DNA of 64,000 bases. Origin: Cyanobacteriota bacterium. Its GTDB lineage: Bacteria; Cyanobacteriota; Vampirovibrionia; Vampirovibrionales; Vampirovibrionaceae. This document shows, in pieces, positions 1 through 21,102 of this stretch. The stretch lies in NCBI GenBank assembly GCA_019751815.1, contig JAIEMW010000004.1, forward strand, positions 911,933 through 975,932, given 5' to 3'. The notes beneath the pieces are model-generated. The model searched no databases. It saw only the letters and a list, made by a program, of their open reading frames with translations, and was not told the DNA's origin. Made by a program: the position numbers and the translations under genes. Position 1 is the first letter of the stretch. Each line of letters opens with the position of its first letter.

Positions 1-2377
1 CTCCTAATCCAGTCAGTGTACTGCTGCTGATAGATTCCTCATTTAGGAGGCTTTGTGACTGGCTAACATCTTCTGGCGAAATGACCCCAGCAGCCACTGG
101 TCCGAAGGTAACAAAATGATCCGGTAAAGGCGGTAAGGCTTCATAGAGTGAGTAATCTTTTTTTCGGTTATCAACGAGCGTCTTTAAATCCTGTGTACAG
201 GCGGTTCCTTGGATGAAAGAGCGTATCTCCTCAACTTCTAAATAGAAAATATCGCGTGGATGGTTGAGGAGACCTGCCCGTGAAAACCAAGTGCCAATGG
301 CACGGAAAATTCGTCGCACCAAGGCAAACGCTCTGGTTCTGGCGAGTCGTTGATTTTCTCGGTTTCGGATTGCAGAACGGGCTCTAAACAAAATCCAACG
401 GTAAATCCAGTAACAGGGATTTAAGGGTGCTTTCATTTTTCGACGCAGCGTTTCTTCCGCTTCTTCTCGCAGTCGAGCGTTGTTTTCGTCAGATCGATGT
501 TCATCTGAAGTGAGTGTTTTCAGATAGTTCTGGATCATGGAAATACAAAAGTCAGGATTGTCCCGCATCGAGAAAGATTCCAGTTTCAGCTCCTCCATGC
601 AGCGATCACCATATTTTGCTAAATATTGGCAAAAAGCATCTCCAAGGCTTGGGTGAGTTTCCAGGAGTTTCAACGCGCTTTGAAGATCGCTTTGGATAAA
701 TTGTGCTTTAAAATCGGGCTCAGTTTCTATCTGACGGGCAATGGCCAGTAACTGCTCCATGACCTGTGTACTCTCAATTTCCCCTTGCCCACTGATGAGC
801 GCGTTTTGCAGTGAACCATCTGGATCTATCTTCCAATTTGCAGTCAGTTTTTTAAGTATCCCATAATAAATCATGGCAGAAAAATCATTGATAATGGGGG
901 CTTTCCAGCTCCAAAGTACTTCTTGCTCAAGCGTCTCAAAATGCTTCAGGTTTTCATGCGGAGCCAAATACTCAAAGTCGATCGGATTCAGTGTGCCATA
1001 GATTTTATTGAAGTGTTGATGGAATAAATCAACGCGCTTCCATAAAGTCCACTGAAGCCATATCATCTGAAAACCGACGCGTATCAAGCTTGGCAGCTCT
1101 TCAACATATTTCTGTTTAATCCCGAGTGATGTTTTATTCAGCTCATCGGGGGTTTCTAGGCCCATCATCGCTTCCATAAAACCCTTGTTAAATTGGAACC
1201 CAGGCATCATTGAAACCAACTGGTACCAGTTTAGAAGGTTATAGTAGACGCGTCCTTGGATTAGGCCGAGCATATTATTGAGCATGCTTTCATGTCGCTG
1301 AATTACCTTTTCAGTAATTCCCAGTACTTCACAAAATTGCCAATAAACGCAGTAATAGGCATTACGAATAAACGAAAATGTCAGCGGGAGCGTGATGCCG
1401 GGATAACTTTCATTGATATTGGCATTGTCCCAGACTTGTCGGTTTCCATCCTCAGGTTTTTTTCTGAGAACAAAACCGGTGACTGGCCTGGCCTGGAGAA
1501 AATAAATCTCCTCGCCAGAGGCAGAGACGGCAAATTCGATATCAAGAGGGTGTCCTGTGATCTTTTCAGCAAGTAGTGCCTGCTGCACCAGTGTTTTGAT
1601 TTGTGGATCGCAGAGAGAGGCCTTCTCCTGTAATTCCATTGGAACGTCTGAAAGTTCGGTCAGCCCAGTGACCTTAGCACTAATTTGCTTGGTTTTATGC
1701 ACGATGCTTCGGCTCAAGACGGTTCCCGTTCGGTCTGTGATAAAGGTATCGGCATCCAGCTCGCCGGAGACCAGACCTTCTCCCAAGCCCCAGACACTGC
1801 TGATCAAGAGTTCATCTGGACGACCCGAAACTGGGTTGACGGTGAACAAAACGCCGGCAGCCTCGGGCTTTAGCATATGCTGAAAAACAACAGCCATAGC
1901 GAGTTTTTCGGGATCAAGAGCTCCCTTGCTGGTTCGATAGGTGTTGGCCCGATCACTGTGGAGAGATCGCCAGCAGGTTAAAAGTGCGGATGAAAGTGTT
2001 TCCCGTGTGGTAATGTTCAGGCAGGTCTCCATCTGGCCAGCGTAAGAATTTTCGGAGCCGTCTTCATCAACAGCAGAAGAGCGGACTGCCAGGGGAATGT
2101 TTCCGTTGCCCAGAGCGAGCCATATGGTATCGAGACACTGTTCCATCTCTGGAGATAATCTCTCAGGTAATACATGTCCGGGGCAGCTGTCGCGGTAAGC
2201 ATCAGCAGAGAGTAATAAAAAGGGAGGTACTGTCAGCCCAAGAGACTGAAGTCGAAAAAGTCCTGCCCCCTTTCCCCCGATTTTATCTGTCGTTACGAAT
2301 TCGGACGCGTGAGTTACCAGCCACGGATGCGTGTGGCACTGACGTGTTAATTCAGTTGCATTTATCGGGCCAGACAT
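1..2377 (-). CDS. PEP synthase / pyruvate phosphate dikinase-like protein (3' end beyond window)
   Basis: My reading of the minus strand from ATG 2377 stays open to the window edge (about 792 codons). The N-terminus has PPDK_N ATP-binding hallmarks: DKIGGKGAGL near residue 23, VRSSAVDEDG near 95, FTVNPVSGRPDELL near 185, and LQARPVTGF near 300. A long mostly helical middle follows; the phosphohistidine swivel domain would lie outside the window. Family members use ATP to phosphorylate a histidine and pass it to pyruvate or another acceptor. The long linker resembles rifampin-phosphotransferase-like PPDK homologues more than the housekeeping PpsA, so the substrate is open. The start overlaps the end of the UbiA-like gene by 16 bp, so it is the third gene of an operon with the ligase and prenyltransferase. 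Family confident, substrate unknown. Confidence 0.85.
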   Translation of the reverse strand, partial: MSGPINATELTRQCHTHPWLVTHASEFVTTDKIGGKGAGLFRLQSLGLTVPPFLLLSADAYRDSCPGHVLPERLSPEMEQCLDTIWLALGNGNIPLAVRSSAVDEDGSENSYAGQMETCLNITTRETLSSALLTCWRSLHSDRANTYRTSKGALDPEKLAMAVVFQHMLKPEAAGVLFTVNPVSGRPDELLISSVWGLGEGLVSGELDADTFITDRTGTVLSRSIVHKTKQISAKVTGLTELSDVPMELQEKASLCDPQIKTLVQQALLAEKITGHPLDIEFAVSASGEEIYFLQARPVTGFVLRKKPEDGNRQVWDNANINESYPGITLPLTFSFIRNAYYCVYWQFCEVLGITEKVIQRHESMLNNMLGLIQGRVYYNLLNWYQLVSMMPGFQFNKGFMEAMMGLETPDELNKTSLGIKQKYVEELPSLIRVGFQMIWLQWTLWKRVDLFHQHFNKIYGTLNPIDFEYLAPHENLKHFETLEQEVLWSWKAPIINDFSAMIYYGILKKLTANWKIDPDGSLQNALISGQGEIESTQVMEQLLAIARQIETEPDFKAQFIQSDLQSALKLLETHPSLGDAFCQYLAKYGDRCMEELKLESFSMRDNPDFCISMIQNYLKTLTSDEHRSDENNARLREEAEETLRRKMKAPLNPCYWIYRWILFRARSAIRNRENQRLARTRAFALVRRIFRAIGTWFSRAGLLNHPRDIFYLEVEEIRSFIQGTACTQDLKTLVDNRKKDYSLYEALPPLPDHFVTFGPVAAGVISPEDVSQSQSLLNEESISSSTLTGLG

Positions 2378-3249
2378 AAACCACTCACCAGATAGTACAA
2401 GACAATAAATAAACCCATTCCGTTACGAAACCAGCGGGATTGGGGACAATGAGGCTGCCCCATATAGATCAGGCACAGTGCAAGACAGGCAACCCCCAAA
2501 ACAGCGGGGATATAAAATAAATTGTTTGGCTGTAGCCAGTATAACCCGGCAATGGCCAATAGGGCGTTGAACAGTGTTAACAACCCTGCCCCAATAGGGG
2601 TGAGCCTTTGCGAGTATGTCTCTTCATGACAGGGGTCTTCAGGAAGGGTTTCTTCATCACTACCAAAAGTCTTTCGAGCAAACTCAAACACATTGAAAAC
2701 CAGCCAGTTACACCCGGAAAAAACCACGCACTCGATAGGCAGCATATTCAAGGCTGTATCACTCAGGGCTGTGGCGATAAAAAGGCCAATCCAGACGGCA
2801 ACCCATGTATGAGTTAGTGCGTAGAATTCCATTTGGGGCCGCAGCCACCGGCCAACGAAAAATTCCCGGTACATCAGGACACTATAAACAAACAAAAGCC
2901 CCCAAGCACAGAAGGCATTGGTGCCTAAATACAAAGCCAATAGTCCTTCTGCAAATGCCAAGGCGAAAGCAACCATTTTCGCTTCTAATAGCGAGATTAA
3001 TTTGCGGGCAAGGGGCCGCGAAGGTTTAATCCGGCAGTCAGTTTCATAATCTTTAATGTCATCAAAAATTCGGAGTCGAAAAAAAATAAAAAAAGTAACC
3101 AATGTGACAATTGCAATGCGGCTAGAGGGCAGGTCATTGGGCGAGTGGCTGGCAACCACCACGGTGTTTCCCCAGACGAGTGCCAGTGTCATGAGCCCAT
3201 GGCTTGAAGGGGAAAAACGCTCCCATAAGAATGTCCACCAGCGAAGCAC
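2362..3249 (-). CDS. UbiA-family membrane prenyltransferase-like protein
   Basis: A 295-residue polytopic membrane protein with about seven to nine hydrophobic segments. The first UbiA aspartate motif is seen as DDIKDYETDCRIKPSRPL near residue 62. The second acidic motif region carries FEFARKTFGSDEE near residue 185. UbiA enzymes transfer a prenyl or similar chain from a diphosphate donor to an acceptor in the membrane, using Mg2+ bound by these aspartates. Start and upstream stop overlap as ATGA with the AMP ligase (3249), and its end overlaps the PPDK-like start, so translational coupling is likely. It does not look like UbiA, MenA or a chlorophyll synthase closely enough to assign a pathway. 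The operon suggests a dedicated lipid or secondary-metabolite route. Confidence 0.82.
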   Translation of the reverse strand: MLRWWTFLWERFSPSSHGLMTLALVWGNTVVVASHSPNDLPSSRIAIVTLVTFFIFFRLRIFDDIKDYETDCRIKPSRPLARKLISLLEAKMVAFALAFAEGLLALYLGTNAFCAWGLLFVYSVLMYREFFVGRWLRPQMEFYALTHTWVAVWIGLFIATALSDTALNMLPIECVVFSGCNWLVFNVFEFARKTFGSDEETLPEDPCHEETYSQRLTPIGAGLLTLFNALLAIAGLYWLQPNNLFYIPAVLGVACLALCLIYMGQPHCPQSRWFRNGMGLFIVLYYLVSGLCLAR

Positions 3250-4910
3250 TAGCCAACTGTCCGAGAAGAGACTGATTCCGCCAGAATGCTTTCGCGAAGT
3301 TTGGCGTATTCCACCTTGCTGTGATGGCGCGGATCCAGGGGTATATCATTTACCACTAAAATTTTATCCACAGGAATGCCTTCAACGGTAAGGGCTTCTC
3401 GAACCCTTTCAATGGCATCGTTTTCTGGGGTGTTATCCTTGATAGAAAAAGCCGCCAGCGCCAGTTCTCCCAGATGCTTATCGGGAAGTCCAAGATAGGC
3501 AGAGACTTTTACAAAAGGGAGCCGGTTCATCACCACTTCGGGCTTCACCGGAAAAAGATAGGTGTTGTTTCTAACAATCACATTATGCAAGCGACCAGCC
3601 ACCCACAGTCGGTTTTGTGAGTCGAAAAAGCAAAGATCCCCAGTGCGGTGCCAGATGCGGCCGTCTGGATCCAGAATTTTTGTATTGGAAAAGGCGTCGG
3701 GATTATTGTAGTACCCTCGGCACACGTGTTCTCCACTTACAGCCAGTTCCCCGACTTCTCCGGTGGCAACTTCCCAAGACTGCCAGCCGTTAAGACCAAG
3801 GGTTATCGGATTTTTTTCTAATTTCAGTAACTTATGCTCAAGCCCTGCTGCCAGTGTGCCGACGCAGACCCCGTCGTGTTCGGTTTCATCCGGCATATAG
3901 TCAGTCAGCAGGTGGGCAATGGGTTCTACTTCCGTTGATCCATATAAAATATGGAGTTCTGCATGGGGGGCCACTTTCTTGAACCGGGCCACATCGTCCG
4001 AGTTAATGGGAGCCCCTCCGGTGGCGACGCGTCTTAAGCCGTTTAACGTAATACTCTGATCAAAAGCTGCCTGCGTTACTTTTCTGAGTAACGAAGGAGA
4101 CAAAGTGCAGCAGGTAGTGTTGCGGTCTTGAATTTGCCGAATGAGGATTGCACCATCATGATCTTGGGCCTTGGCCAGGTCTATCTCAGGCAGGACGGTC
4201 GTAACACCACCAGCCAGATTATTGAGTGAGAAAATCGGAAAGACGGGCAGATCGATATCATCTGGTTGGTAGGGTAGGCAGGTCTCCAGTGCATAATGCT
4301 GGGCGCATAAAAAACGGTGGGTTCTGTCCGCGCCTTTAGGGGGTCCAGAACTACCCGTTGTAAAGGTAATGAGTGCAGTGTCTTCTTGATTAACGGCAGC
4401 GATGGGATGGGTGTTGCCTTCTTGTGCAAGTGTTTCAAGTTGGGCGCTGTAATTGTCCTGATGCGGACCTGTAACGATTTTATACCTTAGACAGTCTAGT
4501 TCAGGCAAGTGGTCAGTGTAGGCAAAGGCTTTTTCAGGGGCGATAAATGCGACTGGGCTGGCCTGAGCGGCACACATTCCCAATTGGTCTGAGCGGGCCC
4601 ATGAGTCCAGAAAAACGGCAATGGCTCCTAGCATTTGTACAGCAAACATGGCGACATACAGGTTGGAGGACATTGGGATAAAGATGAGAACGCGCTCTCC
4701 GCGCTGAATCCCGAGACGGTGAAGTCCATAGGCTGTGGATTGGATTTGCTGCCACAATTCTAAATAGGATAAGGGAGACTCATTTTTTGTGTTTGAGTCA
4801 GCAAGAAAAGCTGCTTTGCTCGGAATGGTTTCCGCATGGCGGTGTAAAAAGGCAATAACGTTGTTATTGGCTGACTTTCCGGTAATGTATCCCAATTTCT
4901 CTTTTGACAC
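3249..4910 (-). CDS. AMP-forming acyl ligase, OleC-like
   Basis: A 553-residue ANL-superfamily enzyme that activates a carboxylate as an acyl-adenylate. The P-loop is TFTTGSSGPPKGADRTH near residue 190, the adenine motif YGSTEVEPIA near 320, and the hinge WHRTGDLCFFD near 418. The C-terminal stretch DPRHHSKVEYAKLR near 530 supplies the candidate catalytic lysine. The sequences around the P-loop and the C-terminal RHHSK resemble the OleC branch (beta-lactone synthetases and 'peptide synthase' homologues) more than 4-coumarate-CoA ligase; that is judgement by eye. The start is GTG 4910 with AGGA about ten bases upstream. First gene of the ligase-UbiA-PPDK operon. The acid substrate cannot be read from sequence. 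Confidence 0.85.
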   Translation of the reverse strand: MSKEKLGYITGKSANNNVIAFLHRHAETIPSKAAFLADSNTKNESPLSYLELWQQIQSTAYGLHRLGIQRGERVLIFIPMSSNLYVAMFAVQMLGAIAVFLDSWARSDQLGMCAAQASPVAFIAPEKAFAYTDHLPELDCLRYKIVTGPHQDNYSAQLETLAQEGNTHPIAAVNQEDTALITFTTGSSGPPKGADRTHRFLCAQHYALETCLPYQPDDIDLPVFPIFSLNNLAGGVTTVLPEIDLAKAQDHDGAILIRQIQDRNTTCCTLSPSLLRKVTQAAFDQSITLNGLRRVATGGAPINSDDVARFKKVAPHAELHILYGSTEVEPIAHLLTDYMPDETEHDGVCVGTLAAGLEHKLLKLEKNPITLGLNGWQSWEVATGEVGELAVSGEHVCRGYYNNPDAFSNTKILDPDGRIWHRTGDLCFFDSQNRLWVAGRLHNVIVRNNTYLFPVKPEVVMNRLPFVKVSAYLGLPDKHLGELALAAFSIKDNTPENDAIERVREALTVEGIPVDKILVVNDIPLDPRHHSKVEYAKLRESILAESVSSRTVG

Positions 4911-5175: not shown

Positions 5176-6663
5176 TTATCGCCAACCGCCACCCAATGCC
5201 CGGTATAAATCGACTTTAGAGCCGATTAAATTCATTTTTAGTTCCAACAAGTCTTGTTGAGCACTGAGCTTCTCTTCTTGTGTCAGTAAAACCTCAACAT
5301 AATCGGCCTTGGCATACTTGAATAAACTATTGGCAATGTCTATAGAGGCATCCAGTAACTGGACTTCTCTTTGTTTCGCTTCAAAGCTGTGTTGTAAATT
5401 CCTGATATTTAACATTTGATTCAGGACTTCGGTATAGGCTTGTAGAAGGGTTTGCTCATAATTTAGGACAGCTTGTGTTTGACGTGCATCTGCAATTTGT
5501 ATTCGCGCAATAATGGCCTTTCGGTTAATAATCGGCGTCATGATAGTACCCAATGTGTCATAGGAGTATGATCCTGAAGCAAAGATTTGACCGGGATCAA
5601 ACGTTGAAAAACCAGTACTGGCATCAATCGTAAAGCTGGGATATAAATAGGCCTTCAGACTTTTTAAATCTAATTTTGCGGCCTTTATTTCATACTCTGC
5701 CTGGCGAATATCCGGCCTGTATTCTAAAAGTTGCGTAGGGATACCCACTTGCAGTTCATCGACTTTCATTTCCATGAGTTTTGCAGCATCTCTGCGAATG
5801 GGCTGCTCATCATAAATCCCTGATAAAAACCGCAGACGATTTTCTTTCTCGACTATTTTTTGACTTATTTGGAAGCGCATGCTTTTTGTTTTTAGTAACT
5901 GTGCTTCAAAACGATTAACTGCCAATTGATTGGATTTAGCATATTTTTTGAGTTCTCTCATTTTAAGAAAAGCAGCATTCTGAATTTTAATATTCTCATC
6001 CATGATCGCTAAGGAATTATCCAGAGCCATCAATTCATAATAATTACGGGCTATTTCGGCTACCAGCCTCGAAAGAAGATAATTCCGACCTTCGTATTTC
6101 GCCATAAGACGCATTCTTGCGGCTTCTTTTGCATTGCGTAATTTTTTCCACGTGTCAATTTCCCATGTCAGACTTGGGCCTATCTTCAAATCAAAGTTGG
6201 GGTGTCTTAAATTATCCCTGTCGAGAGCCTTTTCTACGACGCCATCAAATGTATTGTCGGGGGTGTTAAATCGAGATCCTCTGAAACCCAAACCTATTTT
6301 GGGCAGGTACTCACCTTGTTTCTCTTTGACCTCATTCTTGGCAATTTCTATATCCTGCATAAAAATATTAAATTCTTGATTGTTGGACAAAGCGGTTTCT
6401 ATCAGCGAAATAAGATAAGGATCTGAAAAAAATTCATGCCAATTCATAGAGCCGGCACTGTCAAATTCTTCAAGACTGATAGCGCCTTTTAACTGAGCAG
6501 AACTGAAGTTTTGGGGGATATTAAATTTTGCCTCTCTTTTCTCAAGGCTCAGGGGGCGGAACCAGGACTTTGCCAGGACAGATTCTTGCATAGGAAGCAC
6601 GAGCAGTCCGACGGCAGAGTAGCAAATAATTCTATTGATAAATTTCATATTCTCTAACTTCAT
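5176..6663 (-). CDS. Outer-membrane efflux channel (OprM/TolC family)
   Basis: A 495-residue outer-membrane factor with an N-terminal signal sequence (hydrophobic IICYSAVGLLVLP, cleavage likely near SVLA). Two OEP repeats follow with long heptad-like helices typical of the TolC barrel-tunnel, including LEYRPDIRQAEYEIKAA near residue 305, the NodT/OprM-type signature. It forms the exit duct of the tripartite pump encoded by the two genes upstream (RND transporter ends at 6691, 27 bp away). An alternative start is ATG 6648, five codons downstream; both are preceded by AGAGA. No lipobox cysteine is evident, unlike many OprM proteins. Confidence 0.9.
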   Translation of the reverse strand: MKLENMKFINRIICYSAVGLLVLPMQESVLAKSWFRPLSLEKREAKFNIPQNFSSAQLKGAISLEEFDSAGSMNWHEFFSDPYLISLIETALSNNQEFNIFMQDIEIAKNEVKEKQGEYLPKIGLGFRGSRFNTPDNTFDGVVEKALDRDNLRHPNFDLKIGPSLTWEIDTWKKLRNAKEAARMRLMAKYEGRNYLLSRLVAEIARNYYELMALDNSLAIMDENIKIQNAAFLKMRELKKYAKSNQLAVNRFEAQLLKTKSMRFQISQKIVEKENRLRFLSGIYDEQPIRRDAAKLMEMKVDELQVGIPTQLLEYRPDIRQAEYEIKAAKLDLKSLKAYLYPSFTIDASTGFSTFDPGQIFASGSYSYDTLGTIMTPIINRKAIIARIQIADARQTQAVLNYEQTLLQAYTEVLNQMLNIRNLQHSFEAKQREVQLLDASIDIANSLFKYAKADYVEVLLTQEEKLSAQQDLLELKMNLIGSKVDLYRALGGGWR

Positions 6664-6690
6664 ATTCTCTTTCTGGTCAAGTTAATTTCA

Positions 6691-9600
6691 TTAGCGGAAG
6701 TTTTTCCGAATAAATAATTTCAACAGGGCTTTTAATCTCTTGAATTTTCTTTTGTTAAAGCTTCCTCTGTCTACAAATGATTCCGTCAATGGTTTTAGAT
6801 CTTCATCAACCAATAGTTTCTTTCCATCACCCAGGGTTGCAAATGCATAATACAGCCCGGGGATGATCAATACCCCGATAATCGTTCCAGAAATCATCCC
6901 TCCCATAGCCGAAGAGCCAAGCGTTCTATTTCCCACCGCGCCGGCACCATGAGAGATAACCAAGGGTATAAGACCCGCTATAAAGGCAAATGAGGTCATC
7001 AAGATGGGTCTAAAACGCATTTTCGCCCCTTCAAGGGCTGCATTGATAATGGTTAAACCCTCATTGCGTTTTTGGACCGCAAACTCGACAATTAAGACGG
7101 CATTTTTACCCAAAAGCCCCACCAGCGTGATCATCGCAATCTGGGCATAGACGTCGTTTGCCAAACCCATAATACTCAGCATTAAATACGAGCCAAAAAT
7201 GCCAACCGGCAAGGATAAAAGAACCGCCAAGGGTAAGATAAAACTCTCATATTGTGCTGCGAGTACCAAATAGACAAAAAGGACAACAATTAAGGATATC
7301 ATCGCAAACTCATTGCCACGTTTCGCCTCATCGTATGAAAGGTCTTCCCAGGCGATATCAAACCCACCGGGCAAGGTGTTTTTAGCAACTTCTTTGATAG
7401 TGTTAATAGCATCACCTGAGGTAAAGCCTTTTGCGGGTAGCCCTCTAATAACGGCTGAGTTATAAAGGTTGTACCGTGTCACTTCGTTCGCGCCTTTTGT
7501 CTTTTTGGTTGTCATAAATGACGTATAAGGCACCATTTCTCCGTGATCATTTTTAACAAAGAAGTTGTTCAGGTCATCGAGATTCCTTCTGTATTCAGGG
7601 CCTGCCTGTGTAAACACTTTGAAAAACCGTCCAAACTTAATAAACCCCTGTTCATAAGAACCGCTATTTAAAATGTTTAAATTTTCCATCGCATTTTTAA
7701 TCGTAACGCCTTTTTGCATTGCCAGTTGGTTATCTATTTTGATTTCAAATTGAGGATATGAGGCGTTGTAAAAGGTAAATAAGCCAGTAATTTCTTTGCG
7801 CTTCCCCAGATTATGCATGAAATCTCTTGTGACTCTTTCAAGCTCTTGGTATCGGGTATCACCCGACTTGTCAAGAAGACGTAAGGAAAACCCACCAGAA
7901 GCACCAAACCCAGGAATGGCTGGGGGTTCAAAAAATTCTATCTTAGCACCCAAACCTCTGGTTTTCTGTTCGAGCGCCTCCATAATTTCGTGCACATTCT
8001 GTGTTCTCTCTTCCCAGGGTTTTAGGTTGATAAGACAGGTCCCAGCATTGGAGCCTCTGCCTTCGGTCATAATTTCATAACCCACGATTGAAGTAACGGA
8101 TTCGATCCCTTTTACTTTTTGGGAAATTTTTTGAAGCTGGTTAACGATTTGATTCGTGTACTCCAGAGTAGAACCTGGCGGGGTTTGAACAATCCCATAG
8201 ATGGTGCTTTGGTCTTCATTAGGCACAAAACCTGAAGGGACTAGTTTATTGTAAAAGAAGATACCCGCTGAAAATAAAAGGACGATGCCGAAGGTGAGGA
8301 TTCTTTTTGCAATAATTTTATCCAAAGACCAGATATATCCGTGAGTCAATTTATTGAAAAGGACGTTGAACTTATCAACAAGTCGACTCAGGACGTTGCG
8401 AGATTGCTTATGGCCGCCATGGTTCTTAAGAAACATGGCACACAAAACAGGTGTTAAGGTTAATGCAACCACCCCAGAAATGATGATAGAACTGGCCATG
8501 GTAATGGAAAACTGTCGGTAAAATACGCCCACCGGGCCACTCATAAAGGCAATCGGGCAAAATACGGAAATCATAACCAAGGTAATCGCAATAATCGCCC
8601 CACCCAACTCCGACATTGCTTTTTCGGTCGCCTCATAGGGTGTCAAAGAGGGATCTTCTTCCATTTTGCTGTGCACAGCTTCTACAACTACGATGGCATT
8701 ATCGACAACAATCCCTATCGCCAACACCAACGCAAATAAAGTAATCAGGTTGATCGACATGCCAAACATTAAGAGCACAAAAAATGCGCCAATTAACGAG
8801 ATAGGCACTGCGATGATGGGAATAATAGTAGAGCGCCAATCACCCAAAAAGATAAATACGACGAGAGTGACAAGAATAAAGGCATCTCTGATGGTATCAA
8901 TGACTTGTGCAATAGAGGCATCTAAGAATTTGGAAACGTCATAGCTGTACTTGACTTTAATGCCGTCTGGAAAATTCTTTTTCAGCTCATTAATCTTGTC
9001 TTTAATATTTTTGATTACTTCTCGACCGTTGCTGGTGGGTGTTTGCTTGAGCACGATGGAGGCAGAGGCTCTTCCGTTAAGATTGGAGTAGATGTCATAA
9101 AATTCACTCCCTAGCTCAACTTCGGCAATATCCCGCAGTTTAACGATTTCTCCCTGTTCAGAGCTTTTGATAATGATATTTTCATACTGCTCAGGCTCAT
9201 TATACCGGCCGATATAATTCAGCACGTATTCGGTCGATTGGGCTGTTTTACCAGAACTTAATCCCAGTCTGCCCGGACGTGCAATAATACTTTGCTCGCC
9301 AATCGCCTCAACGACCTCTTTGGGGGAGATGTTGTAGGCTCTCATTCGATCGGGCTTAAGCCATATACGCATCGAATAGGTTCTGGTGCCCAGCAAAGTG
9401 GCATTGGCTACACCATTGATGCGTTGAATTTCTGGAATCAGTTTGGTATAGGCATAATTAAAAAGATATTTCTGATCGATTGTCTTGGACTCAGAATACA
9501 AGTCGATATACAACAGCATAGAGGGCTGGAGCGGTAATATGATAACCCCTTCTCTTTGGACCAAGTCGGGTAACGAGGTCAATACCTGATCCACGCGTGT

Positions 9601-9924
9601 TTTAACATTGACAACAGCCTGGTTTGGATCGGTGCCGGGTTCAAATACAATTCTCAGGGTTGCTTCGCCGGCGCTGGTTGCATCTGAAGCGATGTAGCGC
9701 ATGCCTTGCACGCCATTAATTGCCGATTCGATCGGAATGAGCGTAGATTTTGTCAGTACATCGGCACTGGCGCCGGGATAGGCAATGAAAATATTAACGA
9801 CAGTGGGGGCAATCTTTGGAAACTGTGAGATAGGGAGCTGCTGGATGGCAAGACCACCCAGACAAAGGATAAATATTGAAATAACCAGTCCTAATACAGG
9901 TCTTTTTAGTACATTTCCAAACAT
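6691..9924 (-). CDS. RND efflux transporter, HAE1 (AcrB-like)
   Basis: A 1077-residue inner-membrane proton-drug antiporter with the usual two-fold repeat: a first transmembrane segment near residues 10-28, periplasmic loop, TM2-6 from about 340, a second periplasmic loop from about 560, and TM8-12 near the C-terminus. TM4 reads ALVLAIGIVVDNAIVVVEAV, containing the paired aspartate region used in proton relay. Near the N-terminus it has KRPVLGLVISIFILCLGGLA, as in AcrB/MexB. It would assemble with the adaptor 17 bp upstream and the channel downstream to expel hydrophobic toxins or lipids. The C-terminal tail is Lys/Arg-rich. Substrate cannot be assigned. Confidence 0.95.
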   Translation of the reverse strand: MFGNVLKRPVLGLVISIFILCLGGLAIQQLPISQFPKIAPTVVNIFIAYPGASADVLTKSTLIPIESAINGVQGMRYIASDATSAGEATLRIVFEPGTDPNQAVVNVKTRVDQVLTSLPDLVQREGVIILPLQPSMLLYIDLYSESKTIDQKYLFNYAYTKLIPEIQRINGVANATLLGTRTYSMRIWLKPDRMRAYNISPKEVVEAIGEQSIIARPGRLGLSSGKTAQSTEYVLNYIGRYNEPEQYENIIIKSSEQGEIVKLRDIAEVELGSEFYDIYSNLNGRASASIVLKQTPTSNGREVIKNIKDKINELKKNFPDGIKVKYSYDVSKFLDASIAQVIDTIRDAFILVTLVVFIFLGDWRSTIIPIIAVPISLIGAFFVLLMFGMSINLITLFALVLAIGIVVDNAIVVVEAVHSKMEEDPSLTPYEATEKAMSELGGAIIAITLVMISVFCPIAFMSGPVGVFYRQFSITMASSIIISGVVALTLTPVLCAMFLKNHGGHKQSRNVLSRLVDKFNVLFNKLTHGYIWSLDKIIAKRILTFGIVLLFSAGIFFYNKLVPSGFVPNEDQSTIYGIVQTPPGSTLEYTNQIVNQLQKISQKVKGIESVTSIVGYEIMTEGRGSNAGTCLINLKPWEERTQNVHEIMEALEQKTRGLGAKIEFFEPPAIPGFGASGGFSLRLLDKSGDTRYQELERVTRDFMHNLGKRKEITGLFTFYNASYPQFEIKIDNQLAMQKGVTIKNAMENLNILNSGSYEQGFIKFGRFFKVFTQAGPEYRRNLDDLNNFFVKNDHGEMVPYTSFMTTKKTKGANEVTRYNLYNSAVIRGLPAKGFTSGDAINTIKEVAKNTLPGGFDIAWEDLSYDEAKRGNEFAMISLIVVLFVYLVLAAQYESFILPLAVLLSLPVGIFGSYLMLSIMGLANDVYAQIAMITLVGLLGKNAVLIVEFAVQKRNEGLTIINAALEGAKMRFRPILMTSFAFIAGLIPLVISHGAGAVGNRTLGSSAMGGMISGTIIGVLIIPGLYYAFATLGDGKKLLVDEDLKPLTESFVDRGSFNKRKFKRLKALLKLFIRKNFR

Positions 9925-9941
9925 AGTGATATCAGCCTACG

Positions 9942-11036
9942 TTAATTCGCATATAAATCTAAACCCTGTATGACCTTTTTGGGATCGAGGATCTGGTATT
10001 TGATTTTTTCTCCTTTAGAGAGCTTGTTTTGTCCTTCGAGCACGTACATTTCATCTGGATTGAGTCCAGATTTGAGAATAAAAATATTGGGCGCTTCTTC
10101 AGCGACGATGATTTCACGCTCATGAAGAATGCCTTGTTTGTCCACAACGAGAACAAATTTTTTATCTAAAACTTCAAATGTGGATTTTTGGGGAATAATC
10201 ATGGCATTTTTTAGTGTTGTCGGCCAGAGAATATTTCCAGTTTCCCCGTGACGTAGAAGTGAATGGGGGTTATTAAAAGTAGCTCTGAAAGCAATGTTGC
10301 CAGAGGTGTTATTAAAATCCGATTGAATCGTTTCCATGGTCCCAGCTTCAGGATAGACCTCACTGTTTGCCAGTTTCAGCTGAACCTTTTGAGCAATATT
10401 ATTATGTTTGCTCTTCATGTAGTCTAAATACTGAACTTCAGGCACATTAAAATACACCCATATTTTATGGGTGTCGCTGATTGTGGAAAGCAAATCTCCC
10501 TCATCGAGTAAGCTACCTATCCTAATGTCGCCAAACCTACCAATTGTTCCATTAAAGGGGGCTCGAATTTGGGTAAATCCCAGATGCGTTTTGGCGAGTG
10601 CTAATTCTGCTTGGGCTTTGGCTAGTTTGGCAGCCGACATGGCCGGCTCAGTTTTAGAAATAATATCTTTTTCTACCAACGCCTTGTTGTTCTGTAGTTC
10701 TATCTTGGCAAAGTCGATCTCAGCCAGTGATTTATCGACATCGGCTTTATAAATATTCGGATTGATTTGAAAGAGCATTTGTCCCTGGTGAACCAATTGT
10801 CCTTCATCCACGAATATTTTTTGTAAGTAACCCTTTTCAAGCGCACGAAGCTCAATATGCTGAATGGCTCTAATTTGACAGACATATTCTTTATTAATTG
10901 TCATATCCTGAACCAAAGGCCTGCTAACCTGGTAAGTCAGCTCAGCTTCCTTGGTTTCAGGTGTTGATTGACAGCCCGTTAGAAGAAAAGGGATTAAACA
11001 ACAACAAATAAAAGTGAGTATCTTGATGCGCTTCAC
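9942..11036 (-). CDS. RND periplasmic adaptor lipoprotein (AcrA-like)
   Basis: A 364-residue membrane-fusion protein. The N-terminus is a lipoprotein signal (FICCCLIPFLLTGC), so Cys22 is the likely lipidation site. A short biotinyl-lipoyl half motif (GYLQKIFVDEGQLVHQGQML), an alpha-hairpin of about 60 residues, a second lipoyl half (IRAPFNGTIGRFGDIRIGSLL) and beta-barrel follow. First gene of the adaptor-transporter-channel operon. Size is normal for the family. Confidence 0.93.
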   Translation of the reverse strand: MKRIKILTFICCCLIPFLLTGCQSTPETKEAELTYQVSRPLVQDMTINKEYVCQIRAIQHIELRALEKGYLQKIFVDEGQLVHQGQMLFQINPNIYKADVDKSLAEIDFAKIELQNNKALVEKDIISKTEPAMSAAKLAKAQAELALAKTHLGFTQIRAPFNGTIGRFGDIRIGSLLDEGDLLSTISDTHKIWVYFNVPEVQYLDYMKSKHNNIAQKVQLKLANSEVYPEAGTMETIQSDFNNTSGNIAFRATFNNPHSLLRHGETGNILWPTTLKNAMIIPQKSTFEVLDKKFVLVVDKQGILHEREIIVAEEAPNIFILKSGLNPDEMYVLEGQNKLSKGEKIKYQILDPKKVIQGLDLYAN

Positions 11037-14584: not shown

Positions 14585-14612
14585 GCAATAGTCAGAAAAA
14601 AGAGTGATGCCA

Positions 14613-15299
14613 ATGATGAACACACAAGCCATTAACTCTCCTACCTCTGTAGAAAACCTATCAACTCAAATGATAGAGCTGAACTTTCCTGTTTTTGGAA
14701 AAACGCTGCCCGTGCAGCATGGCTATTTGCTGTATTCGGCTATCTGCCACCAAGTTTCTGCCGCCCATAAGATTGATTTCCAGCTTGGTACTATTGTGGG
14801 TGTCCCCGATGGACAGGGGCACATTCACTTGCAGGAGGGAACCAGTCTTTATATTCGGGTAGAAACCCAGTGGATACCGCAGTTTCTAACGTTAGCAGGA
14901 AAAACCTTGGCGTTGAATGGTCACGAAATTCGATTAGGAATCCCCCGCCCATTTTTGCTAAAGCCTGCCAGCTCTCTTTATTCTCGCCTGGTTGCCATCA
15001 AAGGATTCACGGAAGTGGAGCCGTTTCAGGAAGCCCTGCAACGACAATTATCCAAGTTGAACATTCAGGCCCAAGTTATCATTCCCGTGGACAAGGAAGA
15101 AAAGCCCTCTCGCAAGGTGCTCAAGATTAAAGATAAAATCATTGTAGGTTTTAGCGTCTTGATAGAAGGCTTAAGCGCTGAAGATTCGATAAAGCTACAA
15201 ACCCTCGGCTTGGGTGGTAGACGAAAAATGGGAGCGGGTGTTATGTTTCCCGCTAAGAAAAATTTTCAGGAAAGGTCTAATGCAGCAACTTCTGGCTAA
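14613..15299 (+). CDS. cas6: CRISPR repeat endoribonuclease Cas6 (Cmx6 type)
   Basis: About 228 residues with the ferredoxin-like architecture of Cmx6. The opening MIELNFPVFGKTLPVQHGYLLYSAI, the middle LYSRLVAIKGFTEVEPF and the C-terminal G-rich loop GLGGRRKMGAGVMFP are hallmarks of the I-MYXAN Cas6 family. It cuts pre-crRNA at the base of the repeat hairpin and keeps the 8-nt 5' handle. Starts at GTG 14604, ATG 14607, ATG 14613 and ATG 14616 are all in frame; I chose 14613 for AAGAG eight bases upstream. First gene of the cas operon; its end overlaps the cas3 start by 20 bp. Confidence 0.9.
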   Translation: MMNTQAINSPTSVENLSTQMIELNFPVFGKTLPVQHGYLLYSAICHQVSAAHKIDFQLGTIVGVPDGQGHIHLQEGTSLYIRVETQWIPQFLTLAGKTLALNGHEIRLGIPRPFLLKPASSLYSRLVAIKGFTEVEPFQEALQRQLSKLNIQAQVIIPVDKEEKPSRKVLKIKDKIIVGFSVLIEGLSAEDSIKLQTLGLGGRRKMGAGVMFPAKKNFQERSNAATSG

Positions 15300-17706
15300 G
15301 TCGAGAACAGCAGGAAAAGAGCCGGTTACACTATATAGACACAGTGTACATGTTTACACTGCCGCCAAACTTCTGTTTGGAGATTCGGAGTCCACTGCTT
15401 TATGTACACAATGGCTCCATTTTTTTGGAATTGAAAATAATACCTCTAAATTCTTGCTCAACTTAAAAATTGCCTGTCTGTTTCATGACATCGGGAAAGC
15501 CAACGTAGGATTCCAAAGAAGTATTAAGAAACAAGGTCGGCAACTGATTCGCCACGAACACCTGTCTACAATCTTTTTACTGAATCCTGAAATAAAGAAC
15601 TGGCTAGAACAACACAATGATATTTTTTATGAAGGAATTTTAGGGGCAGTACTTGGCCATCATTTTAAAGCGGCTCATCCTAGTCAGACTTTAAAAGTGT
15701 TAGAACATCGATTTGGTTATTGCACGAATGAGCAAACTCAATGGGAAATTCCATTTAATATCAGACACCCGGATATTCAGAAAGTTATTCATGAGGTAGT
15801 TCAACTATTAAAGAGTCAAACGCCAGACCTCTCAAAGTTATCAGAAAGCTGGGATAATAATTTAATTAACCAGTATATCAATGAATACAAACGACAAAAC
15901 GAATGCTTTAAACGCTCTTTTCTCCATCATGAAAATCATCTATGCAGTGAAAATCGGCTGTTGCTCGCCTTAAAGACTGGGGTTGTTGTTTCTGACAGTT
16001 TAGGTTCTGCTATGCCAAGAGCACATGTTCCTCCAGAAGAATGGGTTCAGGATTTTGTTGATCAATGCTTTCAAAGTGAGTATTTATCCCCAGATTGGAT
16101 TGATGAAAAAATCATACGCCCACGGCAAAAAGAAGTAGAAAACATCACCGGTTGTCAATTTGAATTGAAAGATTTTCAACAGGCAGTTTCTACTTTAGGA
16201 GCCAGGGCTTTGTTACTGGCTGGCTGTGGTTCTGGAAAAACCTTGGCGGCATGGTATTGGATACGACAACAGGTCAATAATAATCCAACCATCCGACGGG
16301 CTATATTCTTATATCCCACAAGGGCGACGGCTACCGAAGGGTTCCGGGATTACGTCTCCTGGGCTGGGGAAGACGCTGCACTCCTGCACGGAACCGCTGC
16401 TTACGATTTACAAGGAATGTTCGAGAACCCGGATGAAGAAGACGAACGCTCTCAACATCGGTACTCTACCTCGGATGAACGCCTTTATGCCTTAGGTTAC
16501 TGGAACAAAAGGGCTTTTAGTGCGACAGCCGATAGTTTTCTATCTTTCCTGAAAAATACCTATCGTTCCGTATGCCTGTTGCCGATTCTGGCAGAAAGCG
16601 TTTTGGTTATAGACGAGGTACATGCTTTTGATTCTAAAATGTTCGGTGCATTGGAACAATTTTTAAAACTATTTAATATTCCTGTTCTCTGTATGACTGC
16701 TTCATTATCCAACAGACGACAAGAGATTCTGACAAGTGCGTGTGGTTTGGAAATGTTCCCGAAAGAGAATCAAAATTTCGAAGAATTGCAAGCTGAAATG
16801 AAACATCCCAGATATCATGTAAAGAGGTTAGAAAATGACTCTCCTGAAAACATTGCCCTTGAAGCATTGAGAGAGAACAACAAAATTATGTGTGTCGTTA
16901 ACACGGTCGATCGTTGCCAAAAAATGGCTAGACGACTGACCGAAGCGTTAGCAGAAAACGAGTACTCATTAAAGCAAGAGACATTTCTAGAGAACAGTAA
17001 AATTCTTTGCTATCATAGTCGGTTTCGAGCAATAGACCGAAAGAAAATTCACGAAACGGTTATTCAAAGATTTAAAAATGAGCCAAAAGGTCTTGTTCTG
17101 GTAACCACCCAAGTTTGCGAGATGAGCCTGGATTTGGATGCGGATATCCTCATTACAGAAGCGGCTCCAGTATCCGCCCTGATTCAAAGAATGGGGCGTT
17201 GTTGCCGAAAGATAAAGCCGGGTAGGACAGGCGAAGTGTGGGTAATAGAACCTGAAAATGAGAAACCCTATGAAAAAGAGGATATAGAGGTTGGAAAAGC
17301 ATTTATTCAATCTTTGTTATTGAAGAACAAACCGGCTTCTCAAAGAGATCTGGCAGATTACCTAGAACAGATGGATGAAGGAAGTCGCCGGGAAATGAGT
17401 GGAAAGCCCACCTTGTTTACTCATGACGGTCTGTTTGCAACACCATCCTACGAAGATCCATTTAGAGATACCGATAACTATACAATTGATTGCGTTTTAG
17501 AAATTGATATTGAAAAATATAAAGTATTACCCAATGAAGCGAAACCGGGGTATATTGTGCCGGTGCCTCGTTACCTGTCGCAAGAGAATAGCTGTCTGCC
17601 TGGATGTTTAAAGATGGCTCCAAATACCCACTACTCGGAAAAGTTTGGTTTTCACAAGGAGGAAGTGTCTGATCATGTCCGAAGAGATCCTGTGCTTATC
17701 ATATGA
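15280..17706 (+). CDS. cas3: CRISPR helicase-nuclease Cas3
   Basis: 808 residues. The N-terminal HD nuclease carries YRHSVHV near 20, LFHDIGKANVGFQ near 67, RHEHLS near 90 and GHHF near 125. The SF2 helicase carries Walker A CGSGKTLA near 317, the DEVH box VIDEVHAFD near 445, motif III MTASLSN near 470, and motif VI QRMGRCCRK near 636. It unwinds and degrades target DNA after recruitment by the effector complex. ATG 15280 is preceded by AGGAAAGG; a longer frame to 15214 would overlap cas6 excessively and lacks a ribosome site. All catalytic residues appear intact. Confidence 0.96.
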   Translation: MQQLLAKSRTAGKEPVTLYRHSVHVYTAAKLLFGDSESTALCTQWLHFFGIENNTSKFLLNLKIACLFHDIGKANVGFQRSIKKQGRQLIRHEHLSTIFLLNPEIKNWLEQHNDIFYEGILGAVLGHHFKAAHPSQTLKVLEHRFGYCTNEQTQWEIPFNIRHPDIQKVIHEVVQLLKSQTPDLSKLSESWDNNLINQYINEYKRQNECFKRSFLHHENHLCSENRLLLALKTGVVVSDSLGSAMPRAHVPPEEWVQDFVDQCFQSEYLSPDWIDEKIIRPRQKEVENITGCQFELKDFQQAVSTLGARALLLAGCGSGKTLAAWYWIRQQVNNNPTIRRAIFLYPTRATATEGFRDYVSWAGEDAALLHGTAAYDLQGMFENPDEEDERSQHRYSTSDERLYALGYWNKRAFSATADSFLSFLKNTYRSVCLLPILAESVLVIDEVHAFDSKMFGALEQFLKLFNIPVLCMTASLSNRRQEILTSACGLEMFPKENQNFEELQAEMKHPRYHVKRLENDSPENIALEALRENNKIMCVVNTVDRCQKMARRLTEALAENEYSLKQETFLENSKILCYHSRFRAIDRKKIHETVIQRFKNEPKGLVLVTTQVCEMSLDLDADILITEAAPVSALIQRMGRCCRKIKPGRTGEVWVIEPENEKPYEKEDIEVGKAFIQSLLLKNKPASQRDLADYLEQMDEGSRREMSGKPTLFTHDGLFATPSYEDPFRDTDNYTIDCVLEIDIEKYKVLPNEAKPGYIVPVPRYLSQENSCLPGCLKMAPNTHYSEKFGFHKEEVSDHVRRDPVLII

Positions 17707-18904
17707 CGTATTTTCGTTGCCAACTGCGCAACACCGAGCGGGTTTGGCCGGGCTTTTGGTATTGCTCGATACTATGCAGGGTCGAAAGATAAATCCATTA
17801 CCTCAGGTTGAAAACACGGAATTTGGCGTTTATCAATTTCATTGGACAAAAGAAAGTCTTCGGGCTGTTTTGAATGAGTTCTATGATGCCACTATGGAGG
17901 AAAGACCCTCTAAAACAAAGCGTAGCGGTCAAACAGCACTCAAAGAAGAAGTACGGAAAAATGAAAAAACGGGCAAGGATGAGAAGCTATATTATTACGA
18001 ACAGTTGGCACCAAAAGCTTCTTTTTTTAGGGCACTGGATATGCATGATATCTGGATGAAGCTTTGGTGCAATGCACTTTGGCAGGTTTTACGGGCACAA
18101 CCTGCAACAAGAAAACCTTTTGACAACAGACAACAACATCAAGATGCTCTTGAAATCGATAAAGAATGGCAGGACTTGGCTAAATTCCAAAACACGATTG
18201 AGAGTAATGGGCAATTTCTGACAGCCAGTCTTTCAGGGTGTTACTTTATTGGCAGTCAGGCACATAATGCTGAGAAAGTAGCTTTTCGAGGGCGGGTTGA
18301 CGAAAATTTTCTGCTACATTTCTGGCCAATTGTCATGGGTGTTTATCAACCTAATATTCTAATGAATGACGGTAAAATGGAGTTTCAAGGCTATGTTTTA
18401 GTGATTCCTGATGTACTGGATGTCGAAGGTTTCAAGGAAGACTACAAACAGGCCATTGGACAGCTTTCATCAGAAGTCGCTGGCTATCGTCCGAAAGATT
18501 CAATTATTAGTATTCATCATGAAGGTGGACTTGCCTATGCCTGGCATTTAATGAAAATTGCCAGTGCTCAAGCCCAAAAATTACAAGCTTATGAGTTCAA
18601 GGTTTCTGGGGTAGAAACTTATCACCTCAAACGAGAGGGTAACAATGTTTATATGCTGGCCTCTGATCGTTTAAAGCTATCTAAATCCATTTTAGAGCAG
18701 TATGAACGCATTGTTCAAAAATATACTCATCCAATATTTAAGCGACAGCTCATTGTAAATCTTTTAGAGAATGACCGGCCTTGGTACAGAGGTTTTGATA
18801 ATATTTTTTCCAAAATGTCGATAGAACATTTTATCGGAAATACTACAAAAGGATTTACATATAACGTTTCTCAAAAACTAGACACTGAAAGGAGTACACA
18901 ATGA
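17675..18904 (+). CDS. cas8: CRISPR effector large subunit Cas8 (Cmx8 type)
   Basis: 409 residues. The N-terminus (LCLSYDVFSLPTAQHRAGLAGLLVLL) is typical of Cmx8 proteins, which recognise the PAM and recruit Cas3. A central basic region (RPSKTKRSGQ) and the segment SLSGCYFIGSQAHNAEKVAFRGR follow. ATG 17675 has an excellent AAGGAGGAAG ten bases upstream; the start lies inside the cas3 end (32-bp overlap). It ends in an ATGA overlap with a 143-residue gene that looks like the usual Cas8 C-terminal helical part, so the large subunit appears split here. Confidence 0.88.
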   Translation: MSEEILCLSYDVFSLPTAQHRAGLAGLLVLLDTMQGRKINPLPQVENTEFGVYQFHWTKESLRAVLNEFYDATMEERPSKTKRSGQTALKEEVRKNEKTGKDEKLYYYEQLAPKASFFRALDMHDIWMKLWCNALWQVLRAQPATRKPFDNRQQHQDALEIDKEWQDLAKFQNTIESNGQFLTASLSGCYFIGSQAHNAEKVAFRGRVDENFLLHFWPIVMGVYQPNILMNDGKMEFQGYVLVIPDVLDVEGFKEDYKQAIGQLSSEVAGYRPKDSIISIHHEGGLAYAWHLMKIASAQAQKLQAYEFKVSGVETYHLKREGNNVYMLASDRLKLSKSILEQYERIVQKYTHPIFKRQLIVNLLENDRPWYRGFDNIFSKMSIEHFIGNTTKGFTYNVSQKLDTERSTQ

Positions 18905-19332
18905 CAACAAGGTTAGAAATTGAACAACCTGTTATCAATAAAAGAGAATTACCTATTCTGATTCATGATTTAATCAAAGGCTATATCATTCGAACAACTG
19001 AAGAAAAAACAAATAAAGAAAATTCTCAAAAATATTGGGATAAACGTGAAAAAACATGCTTAAATGCCTTTTATCGTTTAAGAGCCTGTAAAAATAGGGA
19101 AGATTTTTTAGTCTACTTCACTGGAACACTATGCTCTGTCCCGCAATTCATCCGAGAAGAGGAGTATCAAGTAATCGCGGAATATCTTACTGGAAAAGAA
19201 AACTGGGAAGATGTGAAATCATTATCAATGCTAGCACTGTCAAAATTAAGTTACCGCCCAAAATCTGAGCAAAATCAAGAAAAACAATCAGATCAAGACA
19301 TTACATCTCAAACTGAAGAAGGAGACGAATAA
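18901..19332 (+). CDS. Cas11-like small subunit / detached Cas8 C-terminus
   Basis: 143 residues, predicted mostly helical, with an acidic Gln/Glu-rich tail. The segments YWDKREKTCLNAFYRLRACK, FVYFTG-like LVYFTGTLCSVPQFI and WEDVKSLSMLALSKL recall the C-terminal helical bundle of Cmx8-type Cas8. In several type I systems this region is also made separately as Cas11, which lines the belly of Cascade. Here it is an independent gene, coupled by ATGA to cas8 and two bases from the cas7 start. Position in the operon supports an effector role; the homology is judged by eye. Confidence 0.7.
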   Translation: MTTRLEIEQPVINKRELPILIHDLIKGYIIRTTEEKTNKENSQKYWDKREKTCLNAFYRLRACKNREDFLVYFTGTLCSVPQFIREEEYQVIAEYLTGKENWEDVKSLSMLALSKLSYRPKSEQNQEKQSDQDITSQTEEGDE

Positions 19333-19334
19333 CC

Positions 19335-20303: not shown

Positions 20304-21043
20304 TGAGGTTGCGAATAAAAGCCCCTTTTGCAACCTTTAGAACCTTTACAGCTGGTTGGTTTCGTCCTTCCGCAATGTATATTACACCCAGTGCCGCTTA
20401 TGGTCTTCTTTTAAATCTGGCGGGTATTGAGAGCCGATATGATGACGAAAAATCAGCCATGACACTGATGAAGCCAGATCTACCGGTTTGTGAGATTGCA
20501 TTAGGCATGGTTTCTGAAAAAGCCGAATTGGTGGAGGAACAAACCCTTTATCAGCAAGTCCACAACTATCCAGTCGGATCTTCCGGTAAAGAGAGTAAAG
20601 ATGATTGCAAAGGGAACAAATATAATATCCAGCCTGTTCGTAGAGGCTTTCTGACAAACATTGATGGGTATATTGTTATTCGTAACAATCCTGAATTAGA
20701 AAAAAAAATTCGCACAGGATTACAACATGGCCTTTCTTCTCTTACAGAAAACAATCAGCCTCGTTATGGTGTCCCTTTCTTAGGCGACAACAACTTTATG
20801 ATCGATTTTCTCAGAGAAGAAAACGGGACGTTGGGGACTCTTGTGAAATGGTTATACAGGGCTGATTTAAAGTCCATCTCAAATCAGCCAAGATTACCAG
20901 AAGAGTTTCCCCTTATGCAACGAATGCCTGTTTGGATTGATCGGCAAGACATGACAAAGACCATCTCCACACTGATTGGGGTTCAAGAAGAGCCTGATAT
21001 TGACCCGCCTGATATGGCATGGTTCAAGGTAGGGCCTCAATAA
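20303..21043 (+). CDS. cas5: CRISPR effector subunit Cas5 (DevS/Cmx5 type)
   Basis: 246 residues. The start MRLRIKAPFATFRTFTAGWF with TPSAAYGLLLNLAGIES matches Cas5 proteins, where the N-terminal RAMP strand and the G-rich loop (SAAYGLL) bind the 5' handle of the crRNA. The C-terminal PVWIDRQDMTKTISTLIG region is also typical of the DevS branch. Overlaps cas7 by one base. Confidence 0.92.
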   Translation: MRLRIKAPFATFRTFTAGWFRPSAMYITPSAAYGLLLNLAGIESRYDDEKSAMTLMKPDLPVCEIALGMVSEKAELVEEQTLYQQVHNYPVGSSGKESKDDCKGNKYNIQPVRRGFLTNIDGYIVIRNNPELEKKIRTGLQHGLSSLTENNQPRYGVPFLGDNNFMIDFLREENGTLGTLVKWLYRADLKSISNQPRLPEEFPLMQRMPVWIDRQDMTKTISTLIGVQEEPDIDPPDMAWFKVGPQ

Positions 21044-21102
21044 AAGGCAATTATGACTAGCCTCTCGGTTTGATTAGAACGTATCAAACCGGATGTAGGC
21101 TT

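Follow-up and report, generated by a model that had tools for sequence, protein, structure and literature searches.

A seven-gene locus that begins in a 64,000-nucleotide stretch of a Cyanobacteriota bacterium genome (assembly GCA_019751815.1, contig JAIEMW010000004.1, positions 911,933 to 975,932) and extends past its left edge most likely directs the synthesis of an unusual amino lipid, and no described pathway was found with this gene set. The whole stretch is called the window here (G000:C2:911933-975932), and its genome, G000, comprises 2.62 Mb in 7 contigs. The gene set is recurrent, co-inherited, and horizontally assembled. That the genes of the locus make up a single pathway to an ether-type amino lipid is a proposal to which we give about an even chance. 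No description of this gene set was found in the open-licence PubMed Central literature (preprints lay outside the scope). The first-pass annotation of the window, which grouped the ligase, UbiA, and PPDK-like genes, knew of no standard pathway with exactly these three and suggested a prenylated or modified lipid; no such pathway is known to us either, and among product classes a modified lipid is the most probable.

The locus spans approximately 9.7 kb (L002 10234-19910, with the whole genome read; an L002 position minus 15000 gives the window coordinate) and consists of two operons. The minus-strand operon runs ligase–UbiA–PEP-synthase-like–formyltransferase, with overlaps of 1, 16, and 4 bases, and the plus-strand operon runs HMG-CoA-reductase-like, DUF3419 (BtaA-like), and dolichol/phytol-kinase-like, with overlaps of 11 and 1 bases. 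They converge stop to stop, the formyltransferase and kinase-like genes overlapping by 4 bases. The features, with the names used below, are as follows.

Window 3249..4910, minus strand: LIG, AMP-forming ligase of the PRK09274/OleC branch, 553 amino acids, GTG start (open reading frame, Pfam, curated models).
Window 2362..3249, minus strand: UbiA-family membrane transferase, 295 amino acids (open reading frame, Pfam, motif alignment).
Window 1..2377 (whole gene L002 14702-17377), minus strand: PEPS, phosphoenolpyruvate (PEP)-synthase-like/rifampin-phosphotransferase-like protein, 891 amino acids.
L002 13914-14705, left of the window, minus strand: FMT, formyltransferase (Pfam, alignment).
L002 12610-13917, left of the window, plus strand: PHK, dolichol/phytol-kinase-like membrane protein.
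L002 11513-12610, left of the window, plus strand: DUF3419 protein, BtaA-like (Pfam).
L002 10234-11523, left of the window, plus strand: HMGR, HMGR/FcrA-like reductase (Pfam, pocket residues).
Window 5176..11036, minus strand: RND efflux operon of an HlyD-type adaptor, an AcrB-type pump, and an outer-membrane channel, lying upstream of LIG.

The ligase, UbiA, and PPDK-like genes had been described as one overlapping operon. The minus-strand overlaps (1 base for ligase/UbiA and 16 for UbiA/PEPS) are as described, but the three genes are only part of the unit: the PEPS gene crosses the window edge, with 298 further bases to its left, and the leftward extension suggested by the first-pass annotation added the formyltransferase, HMGR-like, DUF3419, and kinase-like genes. 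No MMPL exporter was found in the window genome's locus, which has the RND pump operon directly upstream of the ligase instead. By its position, that operon can tentatively be counted as a cassette member and possible exporter where other cassettes carry MMPL. A promoter and terminator scan of the locus gave counts like those of shuffled sequences (15 versus 12.7; 15 versus 13.3).

The same families are clustered in 45 genomes or records. The table of these leaves out G092, G138, G238, G244, G349, and G369, which have a distant DUF3419 only, and G083 and G095, which have other HMGRs only; its HMGR scores for G053 and G020 belong to the ligase half of a fused query, not to HMGR. UbiA and PEPS lie on the same strand within 800 bases in 36 of 52 UbiA places, and loci L048 and L051 hold all eight families (LIG, UbiA, PEPS, DUF3419, HMGR, GNAT, diacylglycerol-kinase-like [DGK], and MMPL) within approximately 12 kb. 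Four of 58 relatives, including the window genome itself, have UbiA; the other three come from different families of the same class, and in each of them UbiA-PEPS-DUF3419-PHK, a GNAT-type protein, and LIG form a single run. A survey of 386 genomes from the phylum found 26 with DUF3419, 13 with HMGR, and 22 with UbiA (profile at E 1e-15). UbiA occurs together with DUF3419 in 20 genomes (Fisher p 4e-26) and with HMGR in 11 (Fisher p 8e-14), by a test that ignores kinship. The six genomes with DUF3419 and no UbiA have a more distant DUF3419 (E 3e-40 or weaker).

Beyond the phylum, the UbiA profile matches 24 of 39 genomes of the phylum to which the Wallbacteria genome belongs (the Wallbacteria phylum below), whose cassettes include MMPL exporters and a LolA-like protein. 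One scan of named contigs found loci in ADurb.Bin243, JPNA_metabat.86, UBP16, Wallbacteria, and a Heimdall archaeon, in the last of which UbiA stands in a differing context. In Roseinatronobacter sp. S2, a plasmid has HMGR-UbiA-PEPS-DUF3419-PHK-GNAT-LIG on a single strand, and the record start falls within the HMGR gene. Phage records yielded no UbiA relative. The first-pass annotation had regarded its three genes as coupled, a view to be given up if they did not co-occur outside close relatives; the UbiA neighbourhood survey that it proposed finds the partners recurring across classes and in another phylum. Since this recurrence reaches far past close relatives, the pairing goes beyond chance. 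Each enzyme family is common by itself, as an ordinary operon of unrelated housekeeping enzymes brought together by chance would have it, but the same subfamilies co-cluster across classes and in another phylum, with fusions and replacement pairs. The co-occurrence numbers thus disfavour the chance operon, to which we give next to no credence.

Two pairs of families replace each other among the 45 genomes or records. GNAT was found in 18, FMT in 13, neither in 14, and both in none; PHK was found in 9, DGK in 10, neither in 26, and both in none. These counts cover the fetched stretches, and the distribution follows lineage, FMT being the form of the Wallbacteria phylum and the window genome. 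A search for a cassette-type GNAT in the window genome gave no match at E 0.1, in a search run with no positive control. Because an unrelated formyltransferase replaces an acyltransferase and one lipid kinase family replaces another, the exchanges suggest that FMT and GNAT, and likewise PHK and DGK, occupy equal steps. Two fusions link further members. In the Wallbacteria phylum, an AMP-binding domain is fused to HMGR (L130: AMP-binding 17-353, HMGR 630-999), and FMT follows. The ligase and UbiA form one uninterrupted frame in G074 (871 amino acids) and are also fused in G455 and G457, with a shorter UbiA match.

The window locus is a mosaic, in which the ligase and UbiA differ in origin from HMGR and DUF3419. 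In quick maximum-likelihood trees, the ligase and UbiA of the window genome fall with the Wallbacteria phylum (support 100 for each). Its UbiA sits on a long branch, and, judging by their loci, 7 of the 13 Wallbacteria-phylum ligase rows represent ligase halves of the HMGR fusion. HMGR falls with genomes of its own phylum in a group of four (support 100), and DUF3419 falls in a same-phylum group of eight that includes the Roseinatronobacter plasmid row (support 98). The ligase is 46% identical to that of G436, and identities to G063, G065, and G258 are 58-61% for HMGR and 57-61% for DUF3419. Half-cassettes of different origin meet stop to stop, which suggests that the halves work together and that selection united the parts.

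The reductase is probably not an HMG-CoA reductase, judging from its pocket residues. FcrA, which is homologous to class-I HMGR, uses NADPH to reduce fatty acyl-CoA to the alcohol and is inactive on HMG-CoA; it is recognised by an acidic residue in place of Ser684, a bulky one in place of Leu862, and a missing pocket lysine, with the catalytic Glu, Lys, Asp, and His retained (excerpts of PMC11948995). Aligned with archaeal 6hr7, the window-genome HMGR has E, F, and M at the Ser684, Leu862, and pocket-lysine sites. The pocket lysine is printed as Lys795 in the FcrA paper and is placed here at the lysine that we take to be 735. Among 23 cassette HMGR rows, position 684 is acidic in 22 of the 22 with a letter there, position 862 is Phe in 21 of 22, the pocket lysine is lacking in 23 of 23, and the catalytic tetrad is kept wherever a letter is present. 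Thus, 22 of the 23 rows have nothing contrary to the FcrA pocket, the exception being R438b_L163 (Leu), and by these residues the cassette enzymes are FcrA-like. Their putative role as fatty acyl-CoA reductases is transferred from FcrA by analogy. The segment TGNAAGQNM of the window-genome enzyme is the only one with Asn in the place of Asp; of the remaining 22 rows, 21 show Asp and 1 has no letter. A candidate role in which HMGR makes mevalonate as an acyl group was dropped after the FcrA residues were considered.

Neither the HMG pocket residues nor the pathway partners of an HMG-CoA reductase were found in the window genome. It has Dxr (443 bits), and its best mevalonate kinase match, at 20 bits, is not credible. 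HMG-CoA synthase was found in 1 of 22 genomes and not in G000, by a profile that may miss divergent synthases, as it also gave no match in genomes whose mevalonate kinase is good (e.g., G062). This negative is used only jointly with the Dxr and mevalonate kinase results for G000. Mevalonate kinase exceeded its cut-off in 7 of the 22 genomes, and G062 has a second HMGR match just before a mevalonate kinase on contig C87. These results bear on the idea that the reductase feeds wax esters or the mevalonate pathway in an otherwise coincidental neighbourhood. Its family membership would fit that idea, as would FcrA, which was described for wax esters and proposed for ether lipids too (excerpts of PMC11948995). 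The scarcity of HMG-CoA synthase, the Dxr and mevalonate kinase results, and the recurrent clustering, which argues against coincidence, make it very improbable. WS/DGAT matched 0 of 17 genomes, in a search whose controls gave no match either.

The BtaA-like DUF3419 protein points to a lipid. It scores 234.3 bits against the Pfam profile (cut-off 28.2), which all 12 members of alignment A4 match. BtaA, a betaine-lipid enzyme that places homoserine from S-adenosylmethionine (SAM) on diacylglycerol, has this domain (excerpts of PMC10685587). No BtaB was recognised adjoining DUF3419 in the window genome, where no dedicated BtaB search was made. Three loci with distant DUF3419 proteins (L059, L060, and L061) also hold Rieske-type and acyl-CoA-dehydrogenase-like genes, named by eye, and possibly make a natural product containing a 3-amino-3-carboxypropyl group. 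The motifs RKxxH, D-A..A..G..YG, and KxxEG, which we take to be those of CTP-dependent dolichol/phytol kinases, are invariant in all nine PHK members; the CTP_transf_1 profile weakly matches five of the nine (best E 2.6e-5), and the window genome's own PHK has no match. The FMT family is common to the window genome and the Wallbacteria-phylum cassettes, and its presumed catalytic residues Asn, His, and Asp are present in 12, 12, and 13 of 13 rows, with gaps accounting for the absences.

The ligase scores 174.6 bits against Pfam AMP-binding. Its best curated model is PRK09274 (375.7 bits, cut-off 478), followed by two OleC models (226 and 207 bits), whose cut-offs of 900 and 850 lie far above. 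The OleC-like label of the first pass stands at the level of the branch, and by these best models the ligase does not fall among ordinary acyl-CoA synthetases, the other outcome that would have refuted the first-pass proposal. The C-terminal lysine motif is DPRHHSKVEY, and the lysine is retained in 17 of 18 cassette ligases. In two cassettes, an SRPBCC (Polyketide_cyc2) protein follows the ligase (L082 16650-17258 and L054 16820-17323).

UbiA scores 34.3 bits in Pfam, barely above the 34.2 cut-off; its relatives in L007 and L009 reach 50.6 and 51.8 bits, and that in L012 falls below at 23.9. Members of the UbiA superfamily have two aspartate-rich motifs, NDxxDxxxD and DxxxD. Here, motif I is R-x-x-D-x-x-K-D-x-x-x-D, in which the aspartates are partly kept, and motif II is E-x-x-R-K in all 43 rows, replacing the second aspartate motif. 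Because of this replacement, the transfer of isoprenoid chains that had been assigned to UbiA is unproven. An AlphaFold2 model built from five sequences had a mean pLDDT of 47.5 and was not used. Second, divergent UbiA genes lie near GNAT/PEPS relatives off the main cassette in L133, L134, and L135 (G068, G098, and G066) and possibly belong to a sister pathway.

The PPDK-like label needed correction. PEPS has PPDK_N (214.6 bits) and PEP-utilizers (91.1 bits) domains with a long middle region between them, and Pfam finds no PEP-binding C-terminal barrel, which sets it apart from PPDK and PEP synthase. Its order of ATP-grasp, middle, and phospho-histidine domains and its Ser-His motif, retained in all 32 rows with letters there (35-row alignment), are those of a rifampin-phosphotransferase-like protein, and its best matches in the Protein Data Bank are 5hv2 and 5fbs, which we take to be rifampin phosphotransferases. 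A radical SAM/SPASM protein lies between PEPS and DUF3419 in one Wallbacteria-phylum cassette (L154 5815-6963), and a PEPS match on a Methylocystis plasmid has a different, distant context. PEPS also matches PigC (357 bits) and RedH (350 bits), and it could be a condensing ligase, as PigC is in prodigiosin synthesis, with UbiA prenylating an aromatic or amino-acid core of a small secreted signal or antibiotic. MMPL exporters in many cassettes, the sporadic distribution, and the plasmid location would suit such a product. However, PEPS stays below the PigC cut-off of 1300 bits, the window genome's locus showed no NRPS, PKS, or aromatic-core gene, the lipid-kinase swap partners and the BtaA-like enzyme favour lipids, and a UbiA common in one phylum (24 of 39 genomes) better fits a structural lipid. 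A secreted natural product is accordingly unlikely.

The gene set, its recurrence, the fusions and swaps, the mosaic origin, and the residue patterns were observed directly, whereas every reaction of the ether-type amino lipid pathway is inferred. (1) An AMP-forming ligase would activate a carboxylic acid, and the HMGR/FcrA-like enzyme would reduce the thioester to an alcohol in a four-electron step. (2) The DUF3419 protein would transfer the 3-amino-3-carboxypropyl group of SAM onto a lipid hydroxyl, giving an ether-linked homoserine. (3) The free amine would be formylated by FMT here or acylated by the unrelated GNAT elsewhere. (4) The OleC-branch ligase would activate a carboxylate of this intermediate or of a second building block for use by UbiA, a role suggested by the ligase-UbiA fusions of other genomes. 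(5) PEPS may use ATP to phosphorylate the substrate or product of UbiA. (6) PHK, or the DGK-like enzyme elsewhere, would phosphorylate a lipid alcohol, and (7) the MMPL or RND pump would export the product. The proposal specifies neither in which order the steps take place nor which alkyl or prenyl chain is involved. Alcohol formation by the FcrA-like enzyme is the firmest of these assignments, and the roles of UbiA and PEPS are the least firm.

In a variant of the same pathway, the HMGR-like enzyme would make no fatty alcohol but would reduce the activated carboxylate of an N-formyl or N-acyl homoserine lipid to a primary alcohol (homoserinol), which PHK or DGK would phosphorylate to a sphingoid-like amino alcohol phosphate. 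The AMP-binding-HMGR fusion followed by FMT and the ligase agrees with this, as do the GNAT or FMT genes adjoining the HMGR or ligase gene in several cassettes and the DGK-like genes adjoining HMGR in G062, G066, G071, G077, G089, G101, G424, and G425. However, the sole characterised relative with this pocket reduces long-chain acyl-CoA (excerpts of PMC11948995), and the f6 cassettes have a kinase without HMGR. The homoserinol variant is doubtful, if somewhat less so than the secreted natural product.

Several observations weigh against the ether-type amino lipid pathway as proposed. UbiA was not found in the 17 other searched genomes of the window genome's own family and order, the Fisher test is blind to kinship, and in 2 of the 20 joint UbiA/DUF3419 cases (G062 and G077) the DUF3419 match is weak and partial (22 and 38 bits). 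The f6 genomes with UbiA and DUF3419 (G020, G053, G133, G141, and G233) yielded no HMGR, an absence that the pathway leaves unexplained, so the reductase is dispensable or replaceable. The cassette enzymes have Phe where the N. pharaonis enzyme has Trp, which bears on a role transferred by analogy. The active-site motif of UbiA is unlike those of prenyltransferases, so step 4 could differ. The distant DUF3419 proteins of L059-L061 adjoin PKS/NRPS-like genes. We know of no product or enzyme activity for the cassette.

More speculatively, and with less confidence than in the pathway itself, there may be a class of exported ether-linked N-formyl/N-acyl homoserine lipids, built with a UbiA-family enzyme whose substrates are other than ordinary prenyl diphosphates. 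Cyanobacterial relatives, the Wallbacteria phylum, and scattered other bacteria would make these lipids, which would have been missed through misleading gene names (HMG-CoA reductase, PEP synthase, UbiA, and acyl-CoA ligase). If so, several annotations across a group of genomes, "HMG-CoA reductase" and "PEP synthase" among them, share a linked error, and a lipid type that has an exporter of its own is still to be isolated. The two nonhomologous swaps (FMT for GNAT and DGK for PHK) and the two fusions constrain the chemistry unusually well, and the cassette is testable because it is compact and carried on a plasmid of a cultured alphaproteobacterium.

Elsewhere in the window, a type I-MYXAN CRISPR-Cas operon lies at 14604-22788 on the plus strand, with Cas6/Cmx6 (197 bits, cut-off 99), Cmx8 (338 bits, cut-off 150), Cas3, Cas7/Cst2-like, Cas5/DevS-like, and fused Cas4-Cas1 genes. 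At 23676-24551, open reading frames resemble a translated repeat array, in which "AQRLAASKVYA" and "LNALRHQRSMR" recur, presumably the CRISPR array of that operon.

The cassette resembles several known systems in part. Its reductase shares with FcrA the class-I HMGR fold, the catalytic E/K/D/H, the acidic residue for Ser684, the bulky residue at Leu862, and the lost pocket lysine, but differs in having Phe rather than the Trp named for N. pharaonis, in the AMP-binding fusion of the Wallbacteria phylum, and in its cassette setting. That fusion, like ElbD, the FadD-FarA-ACP-PlsC ether-lipid enzyme of Myxococcales (cited in excerpts of PMC11948995), joins an AMP-forming ligase to a fatty acyl-CoA reductase, whereas the cassette reductase is of the HMGR/FcrA family and Pfam finds no PlsC domain in the fusion. 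BtaA/BtaB synthesis of the betaine lipid DGTS shares the DUF3419 domain of BtaA, but in the cassette FMT or GNAT stands in the place of N-methylation by BtaB, and UbiA, PEPS, the ligase, the reductase, and the kinase are added. The OleC beta-lactone synthetase models are the nearest to the window ligase after PRK09274, although it reaches only about a quarter of the curated OleC cut-offs; OleA, OleB, and OleD were not noticed in the fetched cassettes, at which no search for them was aimed. Archaeal DGGGP synthase, an ether-lipid enzyme of the UbiA family, is likewise a membrane transferase sharing some motif I aspartates, but the cassette UbiA has E-x-x-R-K as motif II in 43 of 43 rows. Rifampin phosphotransferase, PigC, and RedH share with PEPS an ATP-grasp domain, a long middle region, a phospho-histidine domain, and the lack of a PEP-binding barrel, whereas PEPS scores far under the family cut-offs and usually adjoins UbiA.

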